Shown here: in pieces, positions 11,122 through 49,613 of the stretch
How the letters are laid out: each line of letters starts with the position of its first letter
Position numbering within the stretch: the stretch's first letter is position 1
From: Bradyrhizobium sp. CCGUVB1N3
GTDB lineage: Bacteria; Pseudomonadota; Alphaproteobacteria; Rhizobiales; Xanthobacteraceae
NCBI RefSeq assembly: GCF_024199925.1
Contig: NZ_JANADR010000001.1
Coordinates: 9,427,501-9,491,500 of the forward strand
Direction of reading: 5' to 3'
Length of the DNA: 64,000 nucleotides
The notes under the pieces: generated by a model
Seen by the model: the letters and a program-made list of their open reading frames with translations, nothing else
The model's database searches: none
What the model was told of the DNA's origin: nothing
Made by a program: the position numbers and the translations under genes

Positions 11122-13014
11122 ATGTCGATCAGCAGCATCAACTACTCTTCGTCGATTCTCGGCGCGCAGATACGCAACATCAACCAGCAGCTCACCGACC
11201 TGTCGACGCAGCTGTCCACCGGCAAGCTGTCCCAGAACTATTCGGGCATGGGCACCAACGAAGGCTTCGCGATCGCCTCGCGCGCGCAGCTTTCGAACAT
11301 CGCCGCCTATACCGACACGATCACCAACGTCAACGTCAGCATCAACCTCGCCAACACCGCGCTCCAGTCGCTGACGACGATCCGCAATACGGTGCAGACG
11401 GGCTCCGCCAGCACCGCCCAGGATCTCAACGTCAACGGACAGACCATTGCGCAGAACACCGCCGCGGCCCAGTTCGCCTCGATGGTCGGCGTCCTCAACA
11501 CCCAGTCGGGCAACCGCTATCTGTTCTCTGGGACCGCCTTCAACACGCAGTCCGTCGCCAACGCCGATGATATCATCAACGGCACGACGACGCAGGCGGG
11601 CTTCAAGACCGTCATGGCCGAGCGCCAGGCGGCCGACCTCGGCGCGAATGGCATGGGCCGGCTGGTGCAGACGCAGCCGACGGCGAGCTCGGTGCAGGTG
11701 TCCGAGGACGTCGCAGGATCGCCGTTCGGGCTGAAGATCGCGGCCGTCTCCTCGACGCTGACCGGCGCCACCGTGACGGGGCCGAGCGGATCGCCGGTGT
11801 CCTTCTCGGTCGATCTCAATGGCAACAATCCGAACAATGGCGACAAGCTGAGCGTTCAGTTCACGCTGCCGGACGGCACGACCGAGCAGATCGACCTGAC
11901 CGCCTCCAGTGCGACGCCGACGCCGGCCGGGAGCTTTGCGATCGATGCAAGCACCCCCGTCAACCCGAACAATACCGCCTCGAACCTCAACACCGCGCTG
12001 AACACCGCGATCCAGAAGCTCGCCAACACCTCGCTGGTGGCGGCATCCGCCGTGGCCGCCGGCGACAATTTCTTCAACACGGATAGCTCGGCGATCGGCG
12101 CTGCCAAGACCAACCAGGCGACCCCAGCGGCACCGATCAGTGGCACCACCGCGCTGTCCGGCACGGCTCCCTCGGACTCGATCTCACCCGGCTTCTCCGT
12201 CGGCGATTCCATCACCGTCAACGGCACCACACTGAGCTTCGTCGCCTCGGGCGCGACCGGGAACCAGCTCAACGTCACCGACAGTATCCAGACCCTGCTG
12301 AGCAAGATCGATTCGATCACGGGCACCTCGAAGCCGTCGACAATCCATGGCGGCGTAATCACGATCAACACCGACGATGCAGCGACCCTGAGCATCTCGG
12401 GCTCGACCGCGGGCGCCACGGCTGCGCTTGGCGCGCTCGGCTTCGCCTCGTCGCCGATCACGGCCACCCAGCCGCCCTTGCGTGTCGGCTCCTCACCGGC
12501 GAGCTCGGCGACGACGCTGGTGAACGGCTCGGCCAATACCGTGAAATGGTATCAGGGCAATGACGGGCCCGGCTCGGCGCGCTCGACCGCGGTGGCGCGA
12601 GTCGACGATTCCGTCACGGTGCAATACGGCGCGCAGGCCGACGAGGATGCGATCCGCAGCCAGTTGCAGGCGATTGCCGTGTTCGGCACGTTCTCGACCT
12701 CGCCGACCGGGCAATATTCCGGGGCGCAGGTTGCAGCGCTGAGCCAGCGCACAACGCAGGCGCTGACGCCGCAGCCCGGGCAACAGAAGATCGAGGACAT
12801 CCAGACCGACATCGCGATGGCCCAGAACACGATGAAGGACGCCACCACGCGCCAGACCCAGGCCAAGGCGCAGCTTCAGACCATCATCGACCAGGCCGAG
12901 TCGGCGTCTCCCGACCAGGTCGCGAGCGAGATCCTGTCGCTCCAGAACGCGCTCCAGGCGTCCTACCAGACCACGGCGAATCTGGCGCAGCTCTCGCTCG
13001 TCAAATTCCTGTAA
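11122..13014 (+). CDS. flgL: Hook-filament junction protein FlgL (HAP3, flagellin family)
   Basis: 630 residues. The N-terminal flagellin-type helix (ILGAQIRNINQQLTDLSTQLSTGK) and C-terminal helix (VASEILSLQNALQASYQTTANLAQLSLVKFL) frame a large variable middle, and NRYLFSGTAFNTQ is typical of FlgL. It caps the hook for filament attachment. It is about twice the length of enteric FlgL. Part of the excess, near residues 335-450, is an IN-motif-like module shared with FlgE and the flagellins. Last gene of the hook operon; a CtrA-type box begins eight bases after its stop. Confidence 0.92.
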   Translation: MSISSINYSSSILGAQIRNINQQLTDLSTQLSTGKLSQNYSGMGTNEGFAIASRAQLSNIAAYTDTITNVNVSINLANTALQSLTTIRNTVQTGSASTAQDLNVNGQTIAQNTAAAQFASMVGVLNTQSGNRYLFSGTAFNTQSVANADDIINGTTTQAGFKTVMAERQAADLGANGMGRLVQTQPTASSVQVSEDVAGSPFGLKIAAVSSTLTGATVTGPSGSPVSFSVDLNGNNPNNGDKLSVQFTLPDGTTEQIDLTASSATPTPAGSFAIDASTPVNPNNTASNLNTALNTAIQKLANTSLVAASAVAAGDNFFNTDSSAIGAAKTNQATPAAPISGTTALSGTAPSDSISPGFSVGDSITVNGTTLSFVASGATGNQLNVTDSIQTLLSKIDSITGTSKPSTIHGGVITINTDDAATLSISGSTAGATAALGALGFASSPITATQPPLRVGSSPASSATTLVNGSANTVKWYQGNDGPGSARSTAVARVDDSVTVQYGAQADEDAIRSQLQAIAVFGTFSTSPTGQYSGAQVAALSQRTTQALTPQPGQQKIEDIQTDIAMAQNTMKDATTRQTQAKAQLQTIIDQAESASPDQVASEILSLQNALQASYQTTANLAQLSLVKFL

Positions 13015-13021
13015 GGGAGCG

Positions 13022-13036
13022 TTAAGGCTCCATTAA
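13022..13036 (+). promoter_or_regulatory. CtrA-type box before the four-gene enzyme operon
   Basis: TTAAGGCTCCATTAA: a perfect TTAA-N7-TTAA. It lies between the flgL stop and the ATG at 13086, the only gap in an otherwise packed region. CtrA is the alphaproteobacterial cell-cycle and motility regulator. Its role here is inferred from the site sequence and from further copies before flagellar genes in this window. Confidence 0.6.
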
Positions 13037-13085
13037 CCATGCCTGTTTACCTCTTGGTGAGGATTTGGGGCGCGCGGGGCAATTG

Positions 13086-13868
13086 ATGTCGGATCGGATG
13101 CAGCTTGTGGTCGCAACGCCGTGCTTCGGCGGGCAGGTGTCGAGCATCTATGCGAGCTCGATCTTCTCGCTCCAGCGCGCCGTGCACGGCATGTCCAATC
13201 TCGAGCTCAAGGTGCTCTTGCGCGACGGCGACGCGCTGATCACCCGTGCGCGGGCCAATCTGGTCGCGATGTTCCTCGACGATCCCAAGGCCACGCATTT
13301 CCTGTTTGTCGACGCCGATATCGGCTTTGCGCCCGAGCAGGTGTTCCGGCTGATCGAAAGCGGCGCCGACGTCGTCGCCGGCTGCTATCCGATCAAGCGC
13401 GTCAACTGGGACAAGGCCAGGCGGGCGATCCAGGCCGGCAGAGCCGATGTGCCGGCGGCTTCGCTCGATTACGTGCTGGAGATCGAGGATCCCGACCGCA
13501 TCGTCGTCGTCAACGGATTTACGCGCGTGCGCTACGCGGGCACCGGCTTCCTGATGATCCGCCGTCACGCGCTGGAGGCGATGTGCCGGCATCCGAACTA
13601 CGCGGGCTTGCAGTTCTTCCGCGAGCATTCTCACGACACGCTGGCTGCGAGCCAGAACCGCTTCGCGCTGTTTGAATGCATGATCGACCCGGCAACCGGC
13701 ACCTACCTCTCCGAAGACTTCGCCTTCTGCAAGCGCTGGACCGATATCGGCGGCGAGATCTGGGCCGACATCCAGAGCTCGCTCGACCATGTCGGGCCGT
13801 CGGTGTTCCACGGCGACATCGCCTCGCAATTCGCGCCGGCACCCGCCGCCGCAGCAGACGCTGCCTGA
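13086..13868 (+). CDS. Glycosyltransferase-like protein (GT-A fold), first gene of enzyme operon
   Basis: 260 residues from the ATG at 13086; a TTG at 13065 is an alternative start. It opens with the strand QLVVATPCFGGQVSSIYASS, then RDGDALITRARANLVAMF and FLFVDADIGF, where the DxD is the nucleotide-sugar/metal motif of GT-A enzymes. A later block has RYAGTGFLMIRRHALEAM and YLSEDFAFCKRW, the acceptor-side pattern of Anp1-like and small bacterial glycosyltransferases. No signal or membrane segment. It is followed nine bases later by the PLP-fold gene. The position beside flagellar junction and filament genes suggests, but does not prove, flagellin or surface modification. Confidence 0.75.
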   Translation: MSDRMQLVVATPCFGGQVSSIYASSIFSLQRAVHGMSNLELKVLLRDGDALITRARANLVAMFLDDPKATHFLFVDADIGFAPEQVFRLIESGADVVAGCYPIKRVNWDKARRAIQAGRADVPAASLDYVLEIEDPDRIVVVNGFTRVRYAGTGFLMIRRHALEAMCRHPNYAGLQFFREHSHDTLAASQNRFALFECMIDPATGTYLSEDFAFCKRWTDIGGEIWADIQSSLDHVGPSVFHGDIASQFAPAPAAAADAA

Positions 13869-13877
13869 GCCAGCCGG

Positions 13878-15458
13878 ATGAGCGTCGGCGTATCCCGATT
13901 CCACGCTGACGACGGGCCGCGCTACGGGCTGCGCGACCTTTTCACGCCGCTGGAGACGCTGCTTGCCGCCGGTGGCGACCCGCGACTGGCGCTCGATCCA
14001 CGGGACGGTCTCAACGCCTATGCTTGCGCGCCGCAGCCGACGCCCGAGATCTGGAATTTCGCATCTTCGACCGCATCCTCGATCTCGCAAGCGGCGTATG
14101 AGCGCGCCGCGCTCGCCCGCGAGGAACTCGTGCATAAATCGCTGTTCGACGAGGTGGAGGTCGCCTTCGACGCCCGTCTCGAGGACATGCGCGATGAATT
14201 GCGCACCCATCTCCAGCTCTCGCCGCGGGTCGATGTCGTGTTCTCGCCATCCGGCACCGATGCGCAGCTCTACTCGCTGTTCCTGGCGCGCGCCGTGCTC
14301 GGCGCGCCGCCGGTCACCGTCGTCGTCGGCTCCGACCAGACGGGAAGCGGAACGGCGTTTACCTCGCGCGGGCGCCACTTTAGCTCGGTGACGGCGAGCG
14401 GTGTGTCGGTCCGCAAGGACGGCCCGATCGCAGGTCTTGGCGGCGACAGTATCGCGCTGCCGCTGACGGATGAGGCGGACGCCGACTCCGCGGTGCTTCG
14501 CGCAATCGAGACGGTGGTCGCGCAAGGCGCGCCCGTGCTGCTTCAAATCATGGACTCCTCGAAGTTCGGCTGGCGTGCGCCGAGCGAGGCCTGTCTCGAC
14601 GAGATCGCAAAACGTTGGCCGGGCAAGGTTCAGATCGCTGTCGATGCCTGCCAGATGCGGCTGGGCCGGCGGCGGCTGCGCTTTTATCTCGACCGCGGCT
14701 ACATGGTGCTGGTCACCGGCTCGAAATTCTTCGGCGGGCCGGCCTTCAGCGGCGCGCTGCTGGTGCCCAAGGGATTTGTGCGCGCGCTCGATCGCTTGAA
14801 CGAGATTGCGCCGGGCTTCCTCGACTACGCCAGCCGCTTCGACTGGCCGAAGGGCTGGAACGGCTTGCGATCACGCTTCGAGCGCCGACCGAATTTCGGT
14901 CAGTGGCTGCGCTGGGAGGCGGCGCTGGCGGAGATCGCCAGCTACTACGCGCTGCCCGGTGCCTTCCGCGCCAAGGCGCTCGGCGAGCTCAGGGCCGGCG
15001 TCGACGACATGATCGCCCTGACGCCTTCGCTCGGCGCGATCGCGTCCATCGCGCACCGAAGCGGCGTGGACGACGAGGAGTTCGTCCACGACACGATTTT
15101 TCCCGTCATGCTCCTGCGCGATGGCCGGCCGGTGTCGATCGCCGACACCAACGCGGTCTATCGTGCGCTCGCGCGCGACCTGAACGACGACGGCGTCGGC
15201 AGTGCCGCGGACCGGCAGGTGGCTGCGCAGCGGTATCTCGTCGGCCAGCCGGTGCGTCTGGTGCGGCCAGACGGCACACAAGCCGCGCCGCTGCGGCTCT
15301 GCATCGGTGCGCAGCTCGTGACCGGCGCCTGGTCGGCGGATGCGGCGCAAGCGCAAAGGAATCTTCAGCACGTTCTCGACCGCATCGCCGATGTGCTGGC
15401 GAAGATCGAGCTGCTGCTTGGTCGCACGAACAGTGCGGCATCTGCATCCGGAGCCTGA
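13878..15458 (+). CDS. PLP-dependent enzyme, aminotransferase class V-like fold
   Basis: 526 residues. VDVVFSPSGTDAQLYSLFLARAVLG is the glycine-rich PLP phosphate loop. QIMDSSKFGWRAP, then VQIAVDACQMRLG (the Asp that pairs with the pyridine nitrogen) and YMVLVTGSKFFGGPAFSGALLVP follow in the order of fold-type I enzymes, with Lys of TGSKFFGGP the probable Schiff-base lysine. It is longer than usual class V enzymes (about 400). The C-terminal 120 residues are less typical and include DDEEFVHDTIFPVMLLRDGRP. I cannot assign a reaction. The next gene starts one base after the stop. Confidence 0.65.
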   Translation: MSVGVSRFHADDGPRYGLRDLFTPLETLLAAGGDPRLALDPRDGLNAYACAPQPTPEIWNFASSTASSISQAAYERAALAREELVHKSLFDEVEVAFDARLEDMRDELRTHLQLSPRVDVVFSPSGTDAQLYSLFLARAVLGAPPVTVVVGSDQTGSGTAFTSRGRHFSSVTASGVSVRKDGPIAGLGGDSIALPLTDEADADSAVLRAIETVVAQGAPVLLQIMDSSKFGWRAPSEACLDEIAKRWPGKVQIAVDACQMRLGRRRLRFYLDRGYMVLVTGSKFFGGPAFSGALLVPKGFVRALDRLNEIAPGFLDYASRFDWPKGWNGLRSRFERRPNFGQWLRWEAALAEIASYYALPGAFRAKALGELRAGVDDMIALTPSLGAIASIAHRSGVDDEEFVHDTIFPVMLLRDGRPVSIADTNAVYRALARDLNDDGVGSAADRQVAAQRYLVGQPVRLVRPDGTQAAPLRLCIGAQLVTGAWSADAAQAQRNLQHVLDRIADVLAKIELLLGRTNSAASASGA

Positions 15459-15459
15459 C

Positions 15460-16710
15460 ATGCAGTCCGAAGTTTCGCATCCGCCCGGCGTGAACGCGCC
15501 GCAAGTTGCCGATCGTATCGGCTTTGCGCGGTTGACGCATCAGGCGTTCGCCGGCGTCGATCTGCGGCCGTTACGCGATCAGCTCGTGAGCAGGATCGCC
15601 GAGGGCACCGCGCAGGCGGGCGAGGGGCTCGACCTGTCGCTGATCGCGCAGCTTCTCGGCGACAAGGAGGCAGGTCTTGCGATCCAGGCTGAGGTGCTTG
15701 CCTTCCATCAATTGTTTCGTTCGCCTTGCGCCGTTGCAAAGCCCGCGCTGCGCGTGCTCGCGCTTGCCGCAGCCATCGACATGGGCGGCAACACTCCGAT
15801 CGAATTCCTGCTCGAAAGCTCGGACATCGAGCTGTTGACGCTCTACGTCGTCAAGGGCGTGGGCCTGCCGGAGCCGCTGCCGGATCACGACGTCGCCATC
15901 GTCGTCGCATCCGATTCCGAGGAATGCCGCGAGGCGCTCGCGGCGATCGATAATGCCGTCTCGCGCTGGCCGCGGCCGCTGCTCAACCGTCCGGACCGCA
16001 TCGCCAACCTCGATCGCGACAAGCTGCATCGCCTGCTCGCCGGCACGGCGGGCCTCGACATTCCCGCAACGGTCTGCGCGACGCGCGCGCAATTGTCGGA
16101 TCTGTCGCAAGGACAGATCTGGTGCGAGGATATCACGGCCGAGTTGCGCTTTCCGATGATCGTGCGGCCGCGCGGCACGCATGCCGGCGTGGGCCTCGTG
16201 AAGGTCGACGATGCCGCCGCGCTTGCCGATTATCTGACCGAGCGGCAGGAGCAGGAATTCTTCGTCGCGCGCTTCGTCGACTATTCCAGCGCCGATGGAC
16301 TGTTCCGTAAATATCGCCTCGCCATCGTCGATGGCCGCGCTTACGCCTGTCACATGGCGATCGCAGATCGCTGGGACATCTGGTATCTCAACGCCTACAT
16401 GGCCTTCAGCGAAGAGAAGCGCGCGGAGGAAACCGTCTTCATGCGCGACTTCGATGCCGTCTTCGTGAGCCGTCATCGTGCTGCGCTCGACGAGATGATC
16501 GCCCGCGTGGGGCTGGACTATTTCACGATCGACTGCGCCGAGAACAAGAGTGGCGAGCTCCTGATCTTCGAGGCCGACAACACGGCCGTGGTGCATAACA
16601 TGGATTCGCCGGACGTGTTTCCGTACAAGCAGCCTCAGATGCGCAAGATCTTTGCCGCGTTCACCGCGATGCTGTCGCGACATGCGAAGGCGGACGGGAG
16701 CGGAGCATGA
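15460..16710 (+). CDS. ATP-grasp domain protein
   Basis: 416 residues from the ATG at 15460. The N-terminal 160 residues are helical with no clear family. The C-terminal part is ATP-grasp-like: LRFPMIVRPRGTHAGVGLVKVDD (the ATP-binding Lys/Arg strand and flexible loop), QEQEFFVARFVDYSSADGLFRKYRLAIVDG, and FTIDCAENKSGELLIFEADNTAVVHN, which carries the metal-binding acid and asparagine. Such enzymes join a carboxylate to an amine or thiol through an acyl phosphate. It sits between two PLP enzymes with a 1-base gap and a 4-base overlap, so co-translation is likely. The substrate is unknown. Confidence 0.75.
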   Translation: MQSEVSHPPGVNAPQVADRIGFARLTHQAFAGVDLRPLRDQLVSRIAEGTAQAGEGLDLSLIAQLLGDKEAGLAIQAEVLAFHQLFRSPCAVAKPALRVLALAAAIDMGGNTPIEFLLESSDIELLTLYVVKGVGLPEPLPDHDVAIVVASDSEECREALAAIDNAVSRWPRPLLNRPDRIANLDRDKLHRLLAGTAGLDIPATVCATRAQLSDLSQGQIWCEDITAELRFPMIVRPRGTHAGVGLVKVDDAAALADYLTERQEQEFFVARFVDYSSADGLFRKYRLAIVDGRAYACHMAIADRWDIWYLNAYMAFSEEKRAEETVFMRDFDAVFVSRHRAALDEMIARVGLDYFTIDCAENKSGELLIFEADNTAVVHNMDSPDVFPYKQPQMRKIFAAFTAMLSRHAKADGSGA

Positions 16711-18209
16711 ACGAGATCATCCGGGGCGATATCCAGAGCACTCCTGCAGGCGCGTCGCTCGATCCGCAGGATTGGAATGCGTTTCGTGCGCTCGCTCACC
16801 GCATGCTGGACGAGACGATCGACCAGATTGCCAATGTGCGCGAGCGGGCGGTGTGGCAGCCTGCACCGGACAGCGTTCGCGCGCAATTGAAGGCGGATGT
16901 GCCGCGCGGGGCAACCGATCTCGGCGAGGTCTATCGCGAATTCTCGGAAGTGATCGCGCCTTACGCAACCGGCAACGTCCATCCCGGTTTCATGGGGTGG
17001 GTGCATGGCGGCGGCACCGCGGTCGGCATGCTCGCGGAGATGCTGGCGGCCGGGCTCAACGCCAATCTCGGTGGTCGCGATCACATGCCGATCGAGGTCG
17101 AGCGGCAGATCACCGCATGGATGCGCGAGTTGTTCGATTTTCCAAAAACCGCCAGCGGCATCTTCGTCACGGGGACGTCGATGGCGAATTTGATGGCGGT
17201 GCTGGTGGCGCGCACGAGTGCGCTCGGTGCGCTGGCTCGACAGCATGGCATCGGCAATGACGGCGGACTGCTCACCGCCTACACGTCGAAAGCCGCGCAC
17301 GGTTGCATCGCGAAGGCGATGGACATCGCTGGGCTCGGCACCGATGCGCTCCGTCAGATCGAGATCGACGCCGAGCATCGCATCGACGTTTCGGCACTGC
17401 GTGCGCAGATCGCCGTCGATCGCGAGGTCGGCTTCAAGCCGTTCCTCGTCGTCGCGTCTGCCGGCACCGTCGATATCGGCGCGATCGATGATCTCGCCGA
17501 TCTCGCCCAATTGTGCCGCGAGGAGGGGATCTGGTTCCACGTCGACGGTGCGTTCGGGGCGCTGGCGATCCTTTCGCCTGAGCTTGCGCCGCGCCTTGCC
17601 GGCATCGAGCTTGCGGATTCCGTCGCGCTCGATTTCCACAAATGGGGGCAGGTGCCCTATGACGCCGGCTTCCTCATGGTCCGCGACGGAGAGAAACATC
17701 GGCAGGCTTTTGCGCAGCCTGCGGCGTACTTGCGGCGCGAGGCGAGAGGGTTGGCGGCAGGCTCGCAATGGCCGTGTGATTTCGGCCCCGATCTGTCGCG
17801 CAGTTTTCGTGCGCTCAAAACCTGGTTCACACTGAAGACGTTTGGCACCGACAGGCTTGGCATGATGATCGCGCACACCTGTGCGCTCGCCCGATATCTC
17901 GAAACACGCGTTCTCGCCGAGCCGCGACTGGAATTGCTCGCGCCAGTCAATCTCAACATCGTGTGCTTCCGCTATCGTGCCGATGACGAGGTCAATCGCG
18001 AGATCGTTGCCGATGTCCAGGTTTCAGGCATCGCCGCGCCCTCGAGCACGACGCTGGACGGCAAGTTTGCGATCCGCGCCGCGATCGTCAATCACCGCAC
18101 GGATGTGACCGACATCGACGCGCTGGTGGCCGCCGTGCTGGATTTCGGCGCGCGGCGAACGGGCGATGGTCTGGTCGAGATCGACGCACCGCCGCTTGCG
18201 GCACAGTAA
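16707..18209 (+). CDS. PLP-dependent group II amino-acid decarboxylase family protein
   Basis: 500 residues; its ATG overlaps the ATP-grasp stop (ATGA). It matches the aromatic/group II decarboxylase family: FVTGTSMANLMAVLVAR (phosphate loop), YTSKAAHGCIAKAMDIAGL (ring-stacking His), WFHVDGAFGALAIL (Asp for the pyridine nitrogen) and VALDFHKWGQVPYDAGFLM with Lys312 as PLP lysine. Such enzymes decarboxylate aromatic or acidic amino acids to amines; some are aldehyde synthases. With the ATP-grasp ligase upstream, one reading is that the operon makes an amine and ligates it to something. Terminated by a strong hairpin at 18229. Confidence 0.85.
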   Translation: MNEIIRGDIQSTPAGASLDPQDWNAFRALAHRMLDETIDQIANVRERAVWQPAPDSVRAQLKADVPRGATDLGEVYREFSEVIAPYATGNVHPGFMGWVHGGGTAVGMLAEMLAAGLNANLGGRDHMPIEVERQITAWMRELFDFPKTASGIFVTGTSMANLMAVLVARTSALGALARQHGIGNDGGLLTAYTSKAAHGCIAKAMDIAGLGTDALRQIEIDAEHRIDVSALRAQIAVDREVGFKPFLVVASAGTVDIGAIDDLADLAQLCREEGIWFHVDGAFGALAILSPELAPRLAGIELADSVALDFHKWGQVPYDAGFLMVRDGEKHRQAFAQPAAYLRREARGLAAGSQWPCDFGPDLSRSFRALKTWFTLKTFGTDRLGMMIAHTCALARYLETRVLAEPRLELLAPVNLNIVCFRYRADDEVNREIVADVQVSGIAAPSSTTLDGKFAIRAAIVNHRTDVTDIDALVAAVLDFGARRTGDGLVEIDAPPLAAQ

Positions 18210-18283: not shown

Positions 18284-18721
18284 CTAGGCTGCCGAGTTGA
18301 CGTCGGCCTTGACCTCGGTCTTGGGATGCGTGGCTTCGAACTGCTCCCGCAACTTGTCCTCATAGGAAATCAGCTTGCGGGCATCCTTGAGCGCGCGATA
18401 GAGGTCGCCGCTCATGATGTTGTTGTTGATGCCCTCGATGATCGGCCAGGCGCTCGGTACCGCCGTGACGATGTCGCGCACCAGGTTGAAATAGGTGCCG
18501 TGCTGGCTCTGCGGATCCGGCGAGATGTACATGAGCTGCACCGCCAGATAGACGAGCCTCGCCGGCGTGTTGGCGGTCTCGGGCGTGAGGATGTCGCGCT
18601 CGCGCAGGATCGGCACGTTCTCGCCGTCGATCAAAAGGCGGGCGCGCTGGTCGGTATTGGTGATCACGCAGTTGCCGACGATGATGCGTTCGTGCGGTCT
18701 GAGCTCGACTTTGAGAGCCAT
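18284..18721 (-). CDS. flbT: Flagellin translational regulator FlbT
   Basis: 145 residues, the usual FlbT length. ALKVELRPHERIIVGNCVITNTDQRARLLIDGENVPILRE is the family hallmark. In Caulobacter, FlbT binds the flagellin mRNA leader and destabilises it until hook assembly is complete, while FlaF acts in opposition. Here flbT is divergent from the first flagellin, while flaF lies downstream of the second flagellin. The target is presumably the flagellin leaders at about 18830-19047 and 20810-20902. Confidence 0.94.
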   Translation of the reverse strand: MALKVELRPHERIIVGNCVITNTDQRARLLIDGENVPILRERDILTPETANTPARLVYLAVQLMYISPDPQSQHGTYFNLVRDIVTAVPSAWPIIEGINNNIMSGDLYRALKDARKLISYEDKLREQFEATHPKTEVKADVNSAA

Positions 18722-19047: not shown

Positions 19048-20655
19048 ATGTCCGGTATCGTTCTCTCCGCATCGGTTCGTCAGAACCTGCTCTCCCTCCA
19101 GTCCACCGCCGACCTCCTCGCCACCACCCAGTCCCGTCTGTCGACTGGCCGGAAGGTGAACTCGGCTCTCGACAATCCGACCAACTTCTTCACCGCCCAG
19201 GGCCTCGACAACCGCGCCAGCGACATCGGCAACCTGCTCGATGGCATTGGCAACGGCGTCCAGGTGCTGCAGTCCGCCAACACCGGCATCACCTCGCTGC
19301 AGAAGCTGGTCGACAGTGCCAAGTCGATCGCCAACCAGGTGCTGCAGAGCCCGACGGGCTACTCCACGAAGTCGACCGTGACCTCGACCGCGATCACGGG
19401 TGCAACCGCCAGCAACCTGCTGGGCACCGCCTACACCAACAACACGGTCGCCGGCACTGCCGTGCTGAACGACAACACCGGCACTGCGGTCAATATCACA
19501 GCAGCCACCCAGCTGGTTGGCACCGCGGGTGCGGCGTCCGACGACCTTAGCACCGCCATCACCAACGGTTCGGTCCTGACGGTCAACGGCAAGACCATCA
19601 CGTTCGACAACACCGTGACCACTTCGACCCAGGATGCCGCCGGCAACTTCACCATCGGCATCAAGTCGGGCAGCACCTTGACGGTGGGCACCGTGCTTTC
19701 CGCGATCGACACCATCACCGGGACCGGCACGGCTTCGACCGTCGCGAGTGGCAAGCTCACGCTGAGCACCGGCACGACCTCTGATCTCACGATCTCGGGT
19801 TCGGGCAACGTGCTCGCCGCGCTCGGTCTCACCGCCGGCACGACCGCTCGCGTCCCGCCCGCCATCTCGGGCCAGACGCTGACGATCGCCGCCACCGGCG
19901 GCGGCACTGCCACCAGCATCACCTTCGGCACGGGTACCGGCCAGGTCTCGACGCTGAACGGGCTCAATTCGGCGCTCGCGGCGAACAACCTGCAGGCCTC
20001 AATCGACTCCACGGGCGTGATCTCCATCACGACCACCAACGACGCGGCGTCTTCGACGATCGGCACGGTCGGCGGCACGGCCATTACAAGCGCCGGTCCG
20101 TTCCACAGCGCCACCGTGTCGGCTCCGGTCGCCGATCCGACCTCGCAGGCCCAGCGTGCAAGCCTGGTTGCGCAGTACAACAACGTGCTCGCGCAGATCA
20201 ACACGACGGCGCAGGATGCGTCCTTCAACGGCGTGAACCTGCTGAACGGCGACACGCTGAAGCTGACGTTCAACGAAACTGGCAAGTCGACGCTGAGCAT
20301 CACCGGTGTGACCTTCAACACCGCCGGTCTCGGCATCTCGAACCTCACCTCGGGCACCGACTTCCTGGACAACGCTTCGGCCAACAAGGCGCTGACCGTG
20401 CTCAATGCGGCCAGCACCACACTGCGCTCGGAAGCATCGACGCTGGGTTCGAACCTGTCGGTCGTGCAGATCCGCCAGGACTTCAACAAGAACCTGATCA
20501 ACGTCCTGCAGACCGGCTCGTCCAACCTGACGCTGGCCGACACCAACGAGGAAGCGGCCAACAGCCAGGCGCTGTCGACCCGCCAGTCGATCGCGGTGTC
20601 CGCGCTGTCGCTGGCCAACCAGTCGCAGCAGAGCGTGTTGCAGCTTCTGCGCTGA
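19048..20655 (+). CDS. fliC: Flagellin, copy 1
   Basis: 535 residues. N-terminal SIVLS-type flagellin helix with LLSLQSTADLLATTQSRLSTGRKV and FFTAQGLDNRASDIGNLL; C-terminal helix NLSVVQIRQDFNKNLINVLQTGSSNLTLAD ending SQQSVLQLLR. The central 300 residues are Thr/Ser/Gly/Ala-rich and carry IN-motif-like repeats (TVLSAIDTITGTG, later TLNGLNSALAANNLQ). It polymerises into the filament. Large for a flagellin, like the subpolar thick-filament type of Bradyrhizobium. Monocistronic with a strong terminator; flbT is divergent. Confidence 0.95.
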   Translation: MSGIVLSASVRQNLLSLQSTADLLATTQSRLSTGRKVNSALDNPTNFFTAQGLDNRASDIGNLLDGIGNGVQVLQSANTGITSLQKLVDSAKSIANQVLQSPTGYSTKSTVTSTAITGATASNLLGTAYTNNTVAGTAVLNDNTGTAVNITAATQLVGTAGAASDDLSTAITNGSVLTVNGKTITFDNTVTTSTQDAAGNFTIGIKSGSTLTVGTVLSAIDTITGTGTASTVASGKLTLSTGTTSDLTISGSGNVLAALGLTAGTTARVPPAISGQTLTIAATGGGTATSITFGTGTGQVSTLNGLNSALAANNLQASIDSTGVISITTTNDAASSTIGTVGGTAITSAGPFHSATVSAPVADPTSQAQRASLVAQYNNVLAQINTTAQDASFNGVNLLNGDTLKLTFNETGKSTLSITGVTFNTAGLGISNLTSGTDFLDNASANKALTVLNAASTTLRSEASTLGSNLSVVQIRQDFNKNLINVLQTGSSNLTLADTNEEAANSQALSTRQSIAVSALSLANQSQQSVLQLLR

Positions 20656-20716: not shown

Positions 20717-20794
20717 CGTCTCGCGATACGACCGCTTGGCAGGGGGGGCGGTCGTGGGATTAACCGATCGCTAACCCTGCCGCTTAAGCCGCCA

Positions 20795-20902: not shown

Positions 20903-22513
20903 ATGTCCAACATCGTTCTTTCGGCATCAGTTCGCCAGAACCTGTTGTCGCTTCAGTCGACGGCAGACCTGCTCGCGACGACGCAGGAGCGCCTTGCGAC
21001 CGGAAAGAAGGTGAACACCGCGCTCGACAACCCCACCAACTTCTTCACTGCCCAGGGGCTCGACAATCGCGCCAGCGACATCAGCAATCTCCTCGACGGC
21101 ATCAGCAATGGCGTTCAGGTGCTGCAGGCCGCCAACACCGGCATCACCTCGCTGCAGAAGCTGGTCGACAGCGCCAAGTCGATCGCGAGCCAGGTGCTGC
21201 AAAGCCCGACGGGCTATTCGCCCAAATCCAACGTCACGTCAGCCGTGATTACCGGTGCGACCCCCAACAATCTGCTCGGCACGGCCTATACCAACAACAC
21301 GGTCACCGGCACCGCCGTCAACAACGACAACACGAGCGGCGCGCAGCCGATCACCGCGGCGACCAAGCTGATCGGCACCGCCGGCGCGGGTTCCAACGAC
21401 CTCGGTACCGCAATCACCAATGGCTCGGTTCTGACCGTCGACAACAAGACCATCACCTTCTCGACCTCGCAGACCACCTCAACCACCGATTCCTTTGGCA
21501 ACGTCACCATCGGCATCGGCTCCGGCAGCACCTTGACGGTTCAGACCGTGTTGAGCGCGATCGACAGCATCACCGGTGCCGCGACGGCCTCGACCGTCAA
21601 CGGTAGCGGCCAGCTGGTGCTGAGCACCGGCACGACGCAGGATCTGACGATCTCCGGCTCAGGCAACGTGCTCACGGCGCTCGGCCTCGCCGCCGGCACC
21701 ACCGCCCGCGTCCCGCCCCCGCTGAGCGGCGAGACGCTGACGATCGGTGCAACCGGCGGCGGCACCGCGACGAGCATCACCTTCGGCACCGGCACCGGAC
21801 AGATCTCGACGCTCAATCAGCTCAATGCGGCGCTGGCGGCGAACAACCTGCAAGCAACGATCGACACGACGGGACACCTCAACATCGTGACATCCAATGA
21901 TGCGGCTTCCTCGACGATCGGCACGATCGGCGGCACGGCTGCGGCGAGCGGTCAGCCCTTCTACGGCCTGACCGCGCCAGCCCCTGTCGCCGACCCGGAT
22001 TCTCAGGCCACTCGTGCGAATCTCGTCGCGCAGTACAACAACGTGCTGGCACAGATCAATACGACTGCGCAGGACTCCTCCTACAATGGTGTGAACCTGC
22101 TGAATGGCGACACGCTGAAGCTCGTGTTCAACGAAACGGGAAGATCCACGCTGACCATTCAGGGCGTAACGTTCAACTATGCCGGCCTCAGCCTTGCGCC
22201 ACTGACCCAGACTGTTGATTTCCTCGACACCAATTCGGCGAACGCCGTCCTTACGTCGCTCAATTCGGCCAGTACGACGCTTCGTGCAGAGGCATCGACG
22301 CTCGGTTCGAACCTGTCGATCGTGCAGATTCGCCAGGATTTCAGCAAGAACCTGATCAACGTGCTGCAGACCGGTTCCTCCAGCCTGACCCTCGCCGATA
22401 CGAACGAGGAGGCGGCGAACAGCCAGGCGCTGTCGACGCGGCAGTCGATCGCGGTCTCCGCTTTGTCGCTGGCCAACCAGTCGCAGCAGAGCGTACTGCA
22501 ACTGCTCAGGTAG
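20903..22513 (+). CDS. fliC: Flagellin, copy 2
   Basis: 536 residues, tandem paralogue of copy 1 with almost the same N-terminal 105 residues and C-terminal 100 residues. The centre differs in many positions but keeps the same module order (ITAATKLIGTAGAG, TVLSAIDSITGAATAST, ISTLNQLNAALAANNLQ). Both copies therefore probably assemble into the same filament. It has its own promoter region with a CtrA-type box and its own terminator. Multiple flagellin copies are normal in this group. Confidence 0.95.
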   Translation: MSNIVLSASVRQNLLSLQSTADLLATTQERLATGKKVNTALDNPTNFFTAQGLDNRASDISNLLDGISNGVQVLQAANTGITSLQKLVDSAKSIASQVLQSPTGYSPKSNVTSAVITGATPNNLLGTAYTNNTVTGTAVNNDNTSGAQPITAATKLIGTAGAGSNDLGTAITNGSVLTVDNKTITFSTSQTTSTTDSFGNVTIGIGSGSTLTVQTVLSAIDSITGAATASTVNGSGQLVLSTGTTQDLTISGSGNVLTALGLAAGTTARVPPPLSGETLTIGATGGGTATSITFGTGTGQISTLNQLNAALAANNLQATIDTTGHLNIVTSNDAASSTIGTIGGTAAASGQPFYGLTAPAPVADPDSQATRANLVAQYNNVLAQINTTAQDSSYNGVNLLNGDTLKLVFNETGRSTLTIQGVTFNYAGLSLAPLTQTVDFLDTNSANAVLTSLNSASTTLRAEASTLGSNLSIVQIRQDFSKNLINVLQTGSSSLTLADTNEEAANSQALSTRQSIAVSALSLANQSQQSVLQLLR

Positions 22514-49529: not shown

Positions 49530-49544
49530 TTAACAAGTCCTTAA
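49530..49544 (+). promoter_or_regulatory. CtrA-type box before the large TPR gene
   Basis: TTAACAAGTCCTTAA, perfect TTAA-N7-TTAA, 70 bases before the proposed ATG. Confidence 0.6.
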
Positions 49545-49613
49545 TTGGCGAAACCTTAAAGTCGAGGGCACGGGCCGGCCCCATTGCCGGCATGGATCGT
49601 CGGACCGGATGAA

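Follow-up and report, generated by a model that had tools for sequence, protein, structure and literature searches.

A four-gene set between flgL and flbT in Bradyrhizobium, a candidate filament-modification cassette with constant and optional members

A window of 64,000 nucleotides from Bradyrhizobium sp. CCGUVB1N3, whose 10.4-Mb genome is assembled in three contigs, carries within a flagellar gene cluster four plus-strand genes that lie between flgL and flbT and encode a glycosyltransferase (GT), a pyridoxal 5'-phosphate (PLP) enzyme with a class V-like fold, an ATP-grasp ligase, and a group II PLP decarboxylase (DDC). The upstream border gene is one that we take to be flgL from its sequence and synteny. 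A first-pass annotation of this DNA had described the four genes as closely packed, spaced by 9 bases and then by 1 base, with the last two overlapping by 4, and had pointed to a perfect CtrA-type box in the gap after flgL; both observations are confirmed, the box being an exact TTAA-N7-TTAA match 7 bases past the flgL stop codon (Table 1).

The locus, its leader, and its enzymes

Because the 68-kDa flagellins of the subpolar flagellum of Bradyrhizobium diazoefficiens are described as the products of bll5843-bll5846 (PMC4823718), and the name Bll5850 is borne by some of the listed relatives of the PLP protein in the window, the flagellar cluster of the window is, judged from these gene names, that of the subpolar (thick) flagellum. 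B. diazoefficiens itself carries a relative of the PLP protein (P0026) with 75% identity. All organisms named among at least 120 listed matches are Bradyrhizobium, as are 39 of 40 loci compared, with a Parvibaculum as the remaining one.

Table 1. Features of the gene set and its surroundings (aa, amino acids; ORF, open reading frame; TPR, tetratricopeptide repeat)
Feature	Position	Strand	Basis
flgL, hook-filament junction protein; upstream border of the slot	11122..13014	+	ORF; relatives at the equivalent place
CtrA-type box TTAAGGCTCCATTAA	13022..13036	+	exact TTAA-N7-TTAA match; predicted site
Leader, 29 bases, nearly invariant	13037..13065	+	alignment of 36 loci
GT, GT-A/Anp1-like glycosyltransferase, 260 aa	13086..13868	+	aligned sequences; profile matches of relatives
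PLP enzyme, class V-like, fold type I, 526 aa; optional member	13878..15458	+	fold of model
Ligase, ATP-grasp, RimK-like, 416 aa; core member	15460..16710	+	profile and model
DDC, group II PLP decarboxylase, 500 aa; core member, 4-base overlap with ligase gene	16707..18209	+	Pfam
flbT; downstream border of the slot	18284..18721	-	ORF; relative in L216 matches PF07378 FlbT
Flagellin gene, 535 aa; probable GT substrate	19048..20655	+	ORF
Second flagellin gene, 536 aa; TTAA-N7-TTAA boxes upstream at 20784 and 20795	20903..22513	+	ORF

Sites of the form TTAA-N7-TTAA number five in the window, against 0.03 expected; besides the one after flgL, two precede the second flagellin gene and one precedes flgB. 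A further exact site at 49530-49544 precedes an ORF of 1264 aa (at 49584) with weak TPR matches and is a possible non-flagellar target of CtrA. The exact box recurs in 41 of the 54 set-bearing loci tested, mostly at the same distance from the flgL stop; the other 13 all belong to the deep branch, and nine of these, with one strain counted twice, have a one-mismatch form. When 36 loci are aligned, the eight half-site bases are invariant and the spacer varies at four positions. As the 29 bases 3' of the box are almost fixed, with one variable position and at least 35 of the 36 loci identical elsewhere, conservation covers the whole leader and extends beyond the box. This leader is probably the core promoter and 5' end; no second copy occurs in the window at three or fewer mismatches, and scans for sigma-70-type promoters and terminators gave nothing exceeding shuffled sequences. 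For the leader, a conserved RNA fold was rejected because it scored no better than shuffles (z 0.48). The flagellin-glycosylation genes flmG, flmA, and neuB of Caulobacter are described as CtrA-dependent (PMC7591256), and from the box we infer CtrA control of the present operon.

Catalytic motifs are intact in the enzymes of the set. The DDC matches PF00282 in Pfam and has the His, Asp, and Lys of the PLP site. The GT has two DxD-type residues, Asp76 and Asp78, that are invariant in 12 aligned sequences; it does not itself match the Anp1 profile, which 6 of 12 relatives match. Judged by the described build of FlmG, membership in the FlmG family was rejected for a protein of 260 aa that is GT-A-like and gives no TPR match. 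Two GT relatives in locus L177 (8254-8997 and 12011-12733) stand amid prophage-like genes, consistent with a match to phrog_1574.

The PLP enzyme gives no Pfam match to class V aminotransferases (PF00266) at an E value of 0.1 and is therefore assigned to the class V-like enzymes only by the fold of its predicted model. A relative with 32% identity in the same genome (G000:C3:185930-187429; L043 8901-10448, with L166 and L167 upstream) overlaps the 3' end of a nonribosomal peptide synthetase (NRPS) gene whose final domains are AMP-binding, carrier, and thioesterase, and relatives in G331 and G370 (L205, L206) also adjoin thioesterase or carrier ORFs. From these neighbors, a sister group of the PLP family would appear to be associated with peptide assembly lines.

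ATP-grasp ligases of the RimK/ArgX type use ATP to form amide bonds on proteins or carriers. RimK and ArgX are the best structural matches of ligase residues 97-416 in a model of moderate confidence (predicted local distance difference test, pLDDT, 73.3; predicted template modeling score, pTM, 0.68), with inositol kinases and Ddl at most 2 Z units behind the best; by sequence the ligase falls far below the NCBIfam RimK cut-off (TIGR00768, 22.3 bits versus 143.4 required). These residues appear to share the RimK/ArgX fold; the ligase has in addition, at its N terminus, some 85 residues modeled as four helices. TPRs in this part were rejected, as Pfam finds them in none of 17 close ligase members. 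TPR-bearing ligase relatives are found elsewhere in the same genome (G000:C1:2649346-2650380; L098, with N-terminal TPRs by Pfam) and in G318 (L197 and L198); in G318 and several further genomes two such relatives lie back to back.

A constant pair, two optional partners, and an optional slot

How the four genes are retained relative to one another was followed in 98 Bradyrhizobium genomes, including that of the window, drawn from a larger group. At operon-level identity the ligase and the DDC are each found in 65 of these and in identical genomes, the GT in 62, the PLP enzyme in 56, and all four in 54. Neither GT nor PLP enzyme ever occurs without ligase and DDC; the DDC is present without the GT in three genomes (G309, G323, G386) and without the PLP enzyme in nine. 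Split or partial genes were counted as present (GT in two pieces in G367 and partial in G379, ligase in G351), as was a DDC with one stop codon in G325, and weaker matches were left out of the tally (GT at 32-47%, PLP enzyme at 32-37%, and ATP-grasp proteins at 26-38% identity). Among the loci, L031 and L201 are one contig under two names, and L158 and L188 overlap. In the 65 genomes with ligase and DDC, the set has the same location as far as the contigs were read.

On an FlgK tree of 83 loci, from which L032, L034, and L036 were omitted as their contigs end inside the set, ligase and DDC each require one change, the GT six, and the PLP enzyme nine. The first-pass view of the four genes as a unit is thereby rejected: ligase and DDC are constant, GT and PLP enzyme come and go, and the four are not one inseparable four-step pathway. 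Between GT and PLP enzyme no linkage is seen on the same tree (median p 0.5). A 45-locus tree confines the set to one side of a branch with 100/100 support. The trees fit a core pair of ligase and DDC with two optional partners, and also fit simple linkage of the set to a single kind of filament cluster. As a check on vertical descent, trees of neighboring genes give two changes of the set for w5161 (65 loci, 40 set-bearing) and four for flgI, two of them forced by starred branches, with only 5 of 28 loci set-bearing.

The place after flgL is itself an optional slot, since in 26 of the 33 set-less genomes, all of which were surveyed in their flgL region, flgL and flbT simply adjoin, 65-170 bases apart and in no case with an exact box. 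In two of the others (G343, G316) flagellins come immediately after flgL, in three (G370, G363, G329) the stretch fetched holds no flbT or flagellin, and in G326 the contig stops in the flgL region. In G324 the slot is taken up by a TPR protein that BLAST matches at 38% to the TPR and GT9-like protein of deep branches; in the G324 protein Pfam finds only the TPRs. After flgL in G370 (L228 11080-17709) lie two radical-SAM genes and genes for a GT87-like protein, an acyl-CoA dehydrogenase, and a protein resembling phosphonate-binding ones, which may be another modification set. Deep branches carry extra genes in the slot, which in L031 runs PLP enzyme, ligase, solute-binding protein, TPR and GT9-like protein, GT, second ligase, and DDC. 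Of 25 genomes searched, five (G311, G325, G333, G339, G344) have within the operon the TPR and GT9-like gene, whose build resembles that of FlmG; matches to it in the genome of the window are only remote (40-43%) and lie elsewhere.

Flagellin size was compared at 45 loci with readable flagellin genes, using a limit of 500 aa that was set after seeing the data. In all 23 GT-bearing loci the flagellins measure 508 to 812 aa, and in the four where ligase and DDC occur without the GT (L008, L015, L102, L204), on two separate branches of the 45-locus tree, they measure 384-418 aa. Set-less loci include 14 with small (386-419 aa) and 4 with large (507-752 aa) flagellins. Additional GT loci, L261 excepted, give 524-908 aa. 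These counts suggest that GT and large flagellins occur together at this locus; that ligase and DDC are retained where the GT is absent is observed directly. In L008 (Bradyrhizobium sp. AS23.2) a remnant of the GT, its last third, persists between flgL and the PLP gene, with flagellins of 417 aa nearby. As a genome-wide correlate of the set, large flagellins were rejected, set-less genomes carrying them too; in G376, G341, G330, and G302 (L189-L192), flagellin ORFs of 753-775 aa lie outside this cluster, near genes that look like those of chemotaxis or response regulators.

Functional readings and their rivals

The reading that we tentatively favor, at a little short of an even chance, is that the set is an optional filament-modification cassette of the Bradyrhizobium subpolar flagellum in which the GT glycosylates large flagellins and the DDC and ligase add an amine-derived amide; its chemistry we infer by analogy. 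Transcription from a CtrA-type promoter would provide the enzymes alongside the flagellar proteins. Before export, the GT would attach a sugar to the additional portion of large flagellins, which is probably exposed at the surface; the DDC would decarboxylate an amino acid to an amine, and the RimK-like ligase would couple this amine with a carboxylate carried by the glycan or by an acceptor protein, with the PLP enzyme, where present, making or trimming the amino-acid unit. As the pair persists where the GT is gone and flagellins are small, the ligase-DDC step would be independent of the GT. In favor of this reading are the location between flgL and flbT, the matching distribution of ligase and DDC, the empty slot of most set-less genomes, the flagellin sizes at GT-bearing and GT-less loci, the flagellar contexts of GT relatives, the TPR and GT9-like gene that joins the operon in five genomes, the CtrA dependence of flagellin glycosylation in Caulobacter, and the ATP-grasp genes of C. 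difficile and Shewanella. The link to the flagellar regulon drawn in the first-pass annotation is borne out by the constant place in the genus, the conserved box, and the finding of GT relatives within flagellar clusters in further families, and its general idea of a filament or surface modification is supported.

Relatives beyond the genus were sought in 297 genomes of the order, where eight genomes outside Bradyrhizobium have a strong ligase match (E < 1e-70). In G048 the ligase gene adjoins flgE and is convergent with a DDC gene, and in G095 it lies 123 bases past a fliI-like ATPase gene, near fliM, fliG, flgB, and flgC. In G170 the DDC, ligase, and PLP genes are spread over separate contigs, and the ligase gene of G033 overlaps one for a TPR-sulfotransferase. 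Of the 12 contexts of GT relatives that were fetched, three are flagellar clusters (G024, G149, G184), all lacking the other three genes. In these clusters (L169, L170, L176), which belong to other families of the order, two to four GT-family copies surround genes for flagellin, FlbT, and FlaF and may represent a flagellar GT family of broader interest. Elsewhere, in set-less G366 and G306 (L195 8254, L196 9049), GT relatives of 44-48% identity stand outside the flagellar cluster beside genes that, judged from their N termini, look like those of ABC transporters. As GT relatives and the ligase/DDC/PLP sets occur in different contexts outside the genus, the comparisons indicate that they have separate histories and meet in Bradyrhizobium. 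The scattering that the first-pass annotation named as a ground for doubt was thus found in part, ligase, DDC, and PLP genes lying mostly away from flagellar genes.

Several observations count against a filament-modifying cassette. Flagellar contexts account for only two of the eight ligase matches outside the genus, and in four genomes of two other families (G255, G267, G064, G123) DDC, ligase, and PLP enzyme occur together away from flagellar genes, with no flagellar matches in the 6-19 kb fetched around them. The box is absent from four deep-branch loci (L102, L199, L200, L208). The GT-bearing L261 gives one reading of 435 aa beside a flagellin of 746 aa, and G309 and G323, which lack the GT, encode flagellins of 760 and 547 aa, respectively, on different contigs of broken assemblies. 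Corrected for kinship, the association of GT with flagellin size is not significant (median p 0.25); with G309 and G323 included, five independent pairs give two or three agreeing, none opposing, and two or three without difference. The tracking with large flagellins proposed at first pass therefore survives for the GT in 23 of 23 loci and in the small flagellins of the four GT-less ligase/DDC loci, and is broken by G309, G323, and some set-less genomes. Finally, the precedents in Clostridium difficile and Shewanella, as described in the accessible text, lack a decarboxylase.

The main rival, doubtful but the most credible of the alternatives, places two unrelated functions on one transcript: the GT would glycosylate flagellin, and DDC and ligase, with the PLP enzyme, would make a soluble amide metabolite, a signal or protectant, expressed alongside the flagellum. 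The four non-flagellar DDC-ligase-PLP sets, the PLP relatives adjoining NRPS genes in the window's own genome, G331, and G370, and the persistence of ligase and DDC without the GT all favor a soluble product, but across the genus the pair stays within the flagellar cluster, the ligase also occurs in the flagellar clusters of G048 and G095, and the ATP-grasp genes that have been tested at flagellin loci modify flagellin.

An unlikely alternative is a two-enzyme amidation in which DDC and RimK-like ligase couple a decarboxylation-derived amine directly onto an external flagellar protein, either flagellin or a hook-junction protein, with the GT as a separate add-on for large flagellins in an exchangeable slot after flgL. 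The moderate confidence of the ligase model, the closeness of inositol kinases and Ddl to its best match, and the lack of Pfam TPRs in all 17 close ligase members speak against it. Modification of a flagellar protein in this way was not found in the partially covered literature searched. Hitch-hiking of a block without flagellar role, kept by linkage to one flgE-flgK-flgL-fliC type, would account for the single change that restricts ligase and DDC to one side of the FlgK tree, but is highly improbable given the intact catalytic motifs, the conserved box and leader, and the recurring link to flagellar clusters outside this family.

Comparison with known systems

A widely kept, optional cassette for decorating the filament would matter for how the cells swim and attach and for how plants recognize flagellin, and the subpolar flagellum of B. 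diazoefficiens is described as the one responding to chemoattractants (PMC4823718). If the favored reading is true, the locus becomes a test case for the role of ATP-grasp/decarboxylase pairs at flagellar loci, with the presence or absence of slot contents offering natural comparisons.

The operon was not found described under locus names or in partially covered literature on flagellin modification with ATP-grasp proteins, decarboxylases, and Bradyrhizobium glycosylation, nor is it mentioned in the accessible parts of a Bradyrhizobium RpoN study that names flagellum and ATP-grasp (PMC13207237) or of a comparison of flagellar systems in the genus (PMC6406911). The first-pass statement that no system of this composition has been described is within that coverage uncontradicted, but near precedents exist, and flagellin-modification loci with an ATP-grasp gene are already known. 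As in flagellin-modification islands, a glycosyltransferase and tailoring enzymes here adjoin flagellin genes, and the locus includes an ATP-grasp ligase. Decarboxylase and ATP-grasp pairs of the methanofuran and carnosine types may serve as chemical analogies.

The type B locus of C. difficile (GT1-3, CDR20291_0244-0247), as described, is likewise a flagellin locus that has glycosyltransferases together with a gene for an ATP-grasp carboxylate-amine ligase. A mutant in the latter (CDR20291_0245) is reported to lack the terminal peptidylamido sugar (PMC5207246), and taurine, alanine, and glycine are reported in the glycan cap (PMC5207245). This Gram-positive system differs in its GT and ATP-grasp families and has FemAB-like, ornithine-cyclodeaminase-like, and FdtB-like proteins, with no decarboxylase named in the available description. 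The sfmABCDE operon of Shewanella oneidensis similarly places an ATP-grasp protein (SfmE, 412 aa) among flagellin-modifying genes, and deletion of sfmE (SO_3265) is reported to shift flagellin mass (PMC3765264); it differs in its nonulosonic-acid synthase-like SfmA, reductase, and methyltransferase, and its available description includes no DDC or class V PLP enzyme.

The Caulobacter enzyme FlmG, described as about 600 aa with N-terminal TPRs and a C-terminal GT-B domain (PMC7591256), is comparable in that the flagellin-glycosylation genes of Caulobacter are CtrA-dependent, as is predicted for the present operon, and a TPR and GT gene joins the operon in deep branches of Bradyrhizobium. By description FlmG stands apart from the window's GT, using pseudaminic acid and joining TPRs to a GT-B domain, whereas the latter is GT-A/Anp1-like and without TPRs; its build is partly matched by the TPR and GT9-like protein of the deep branches.

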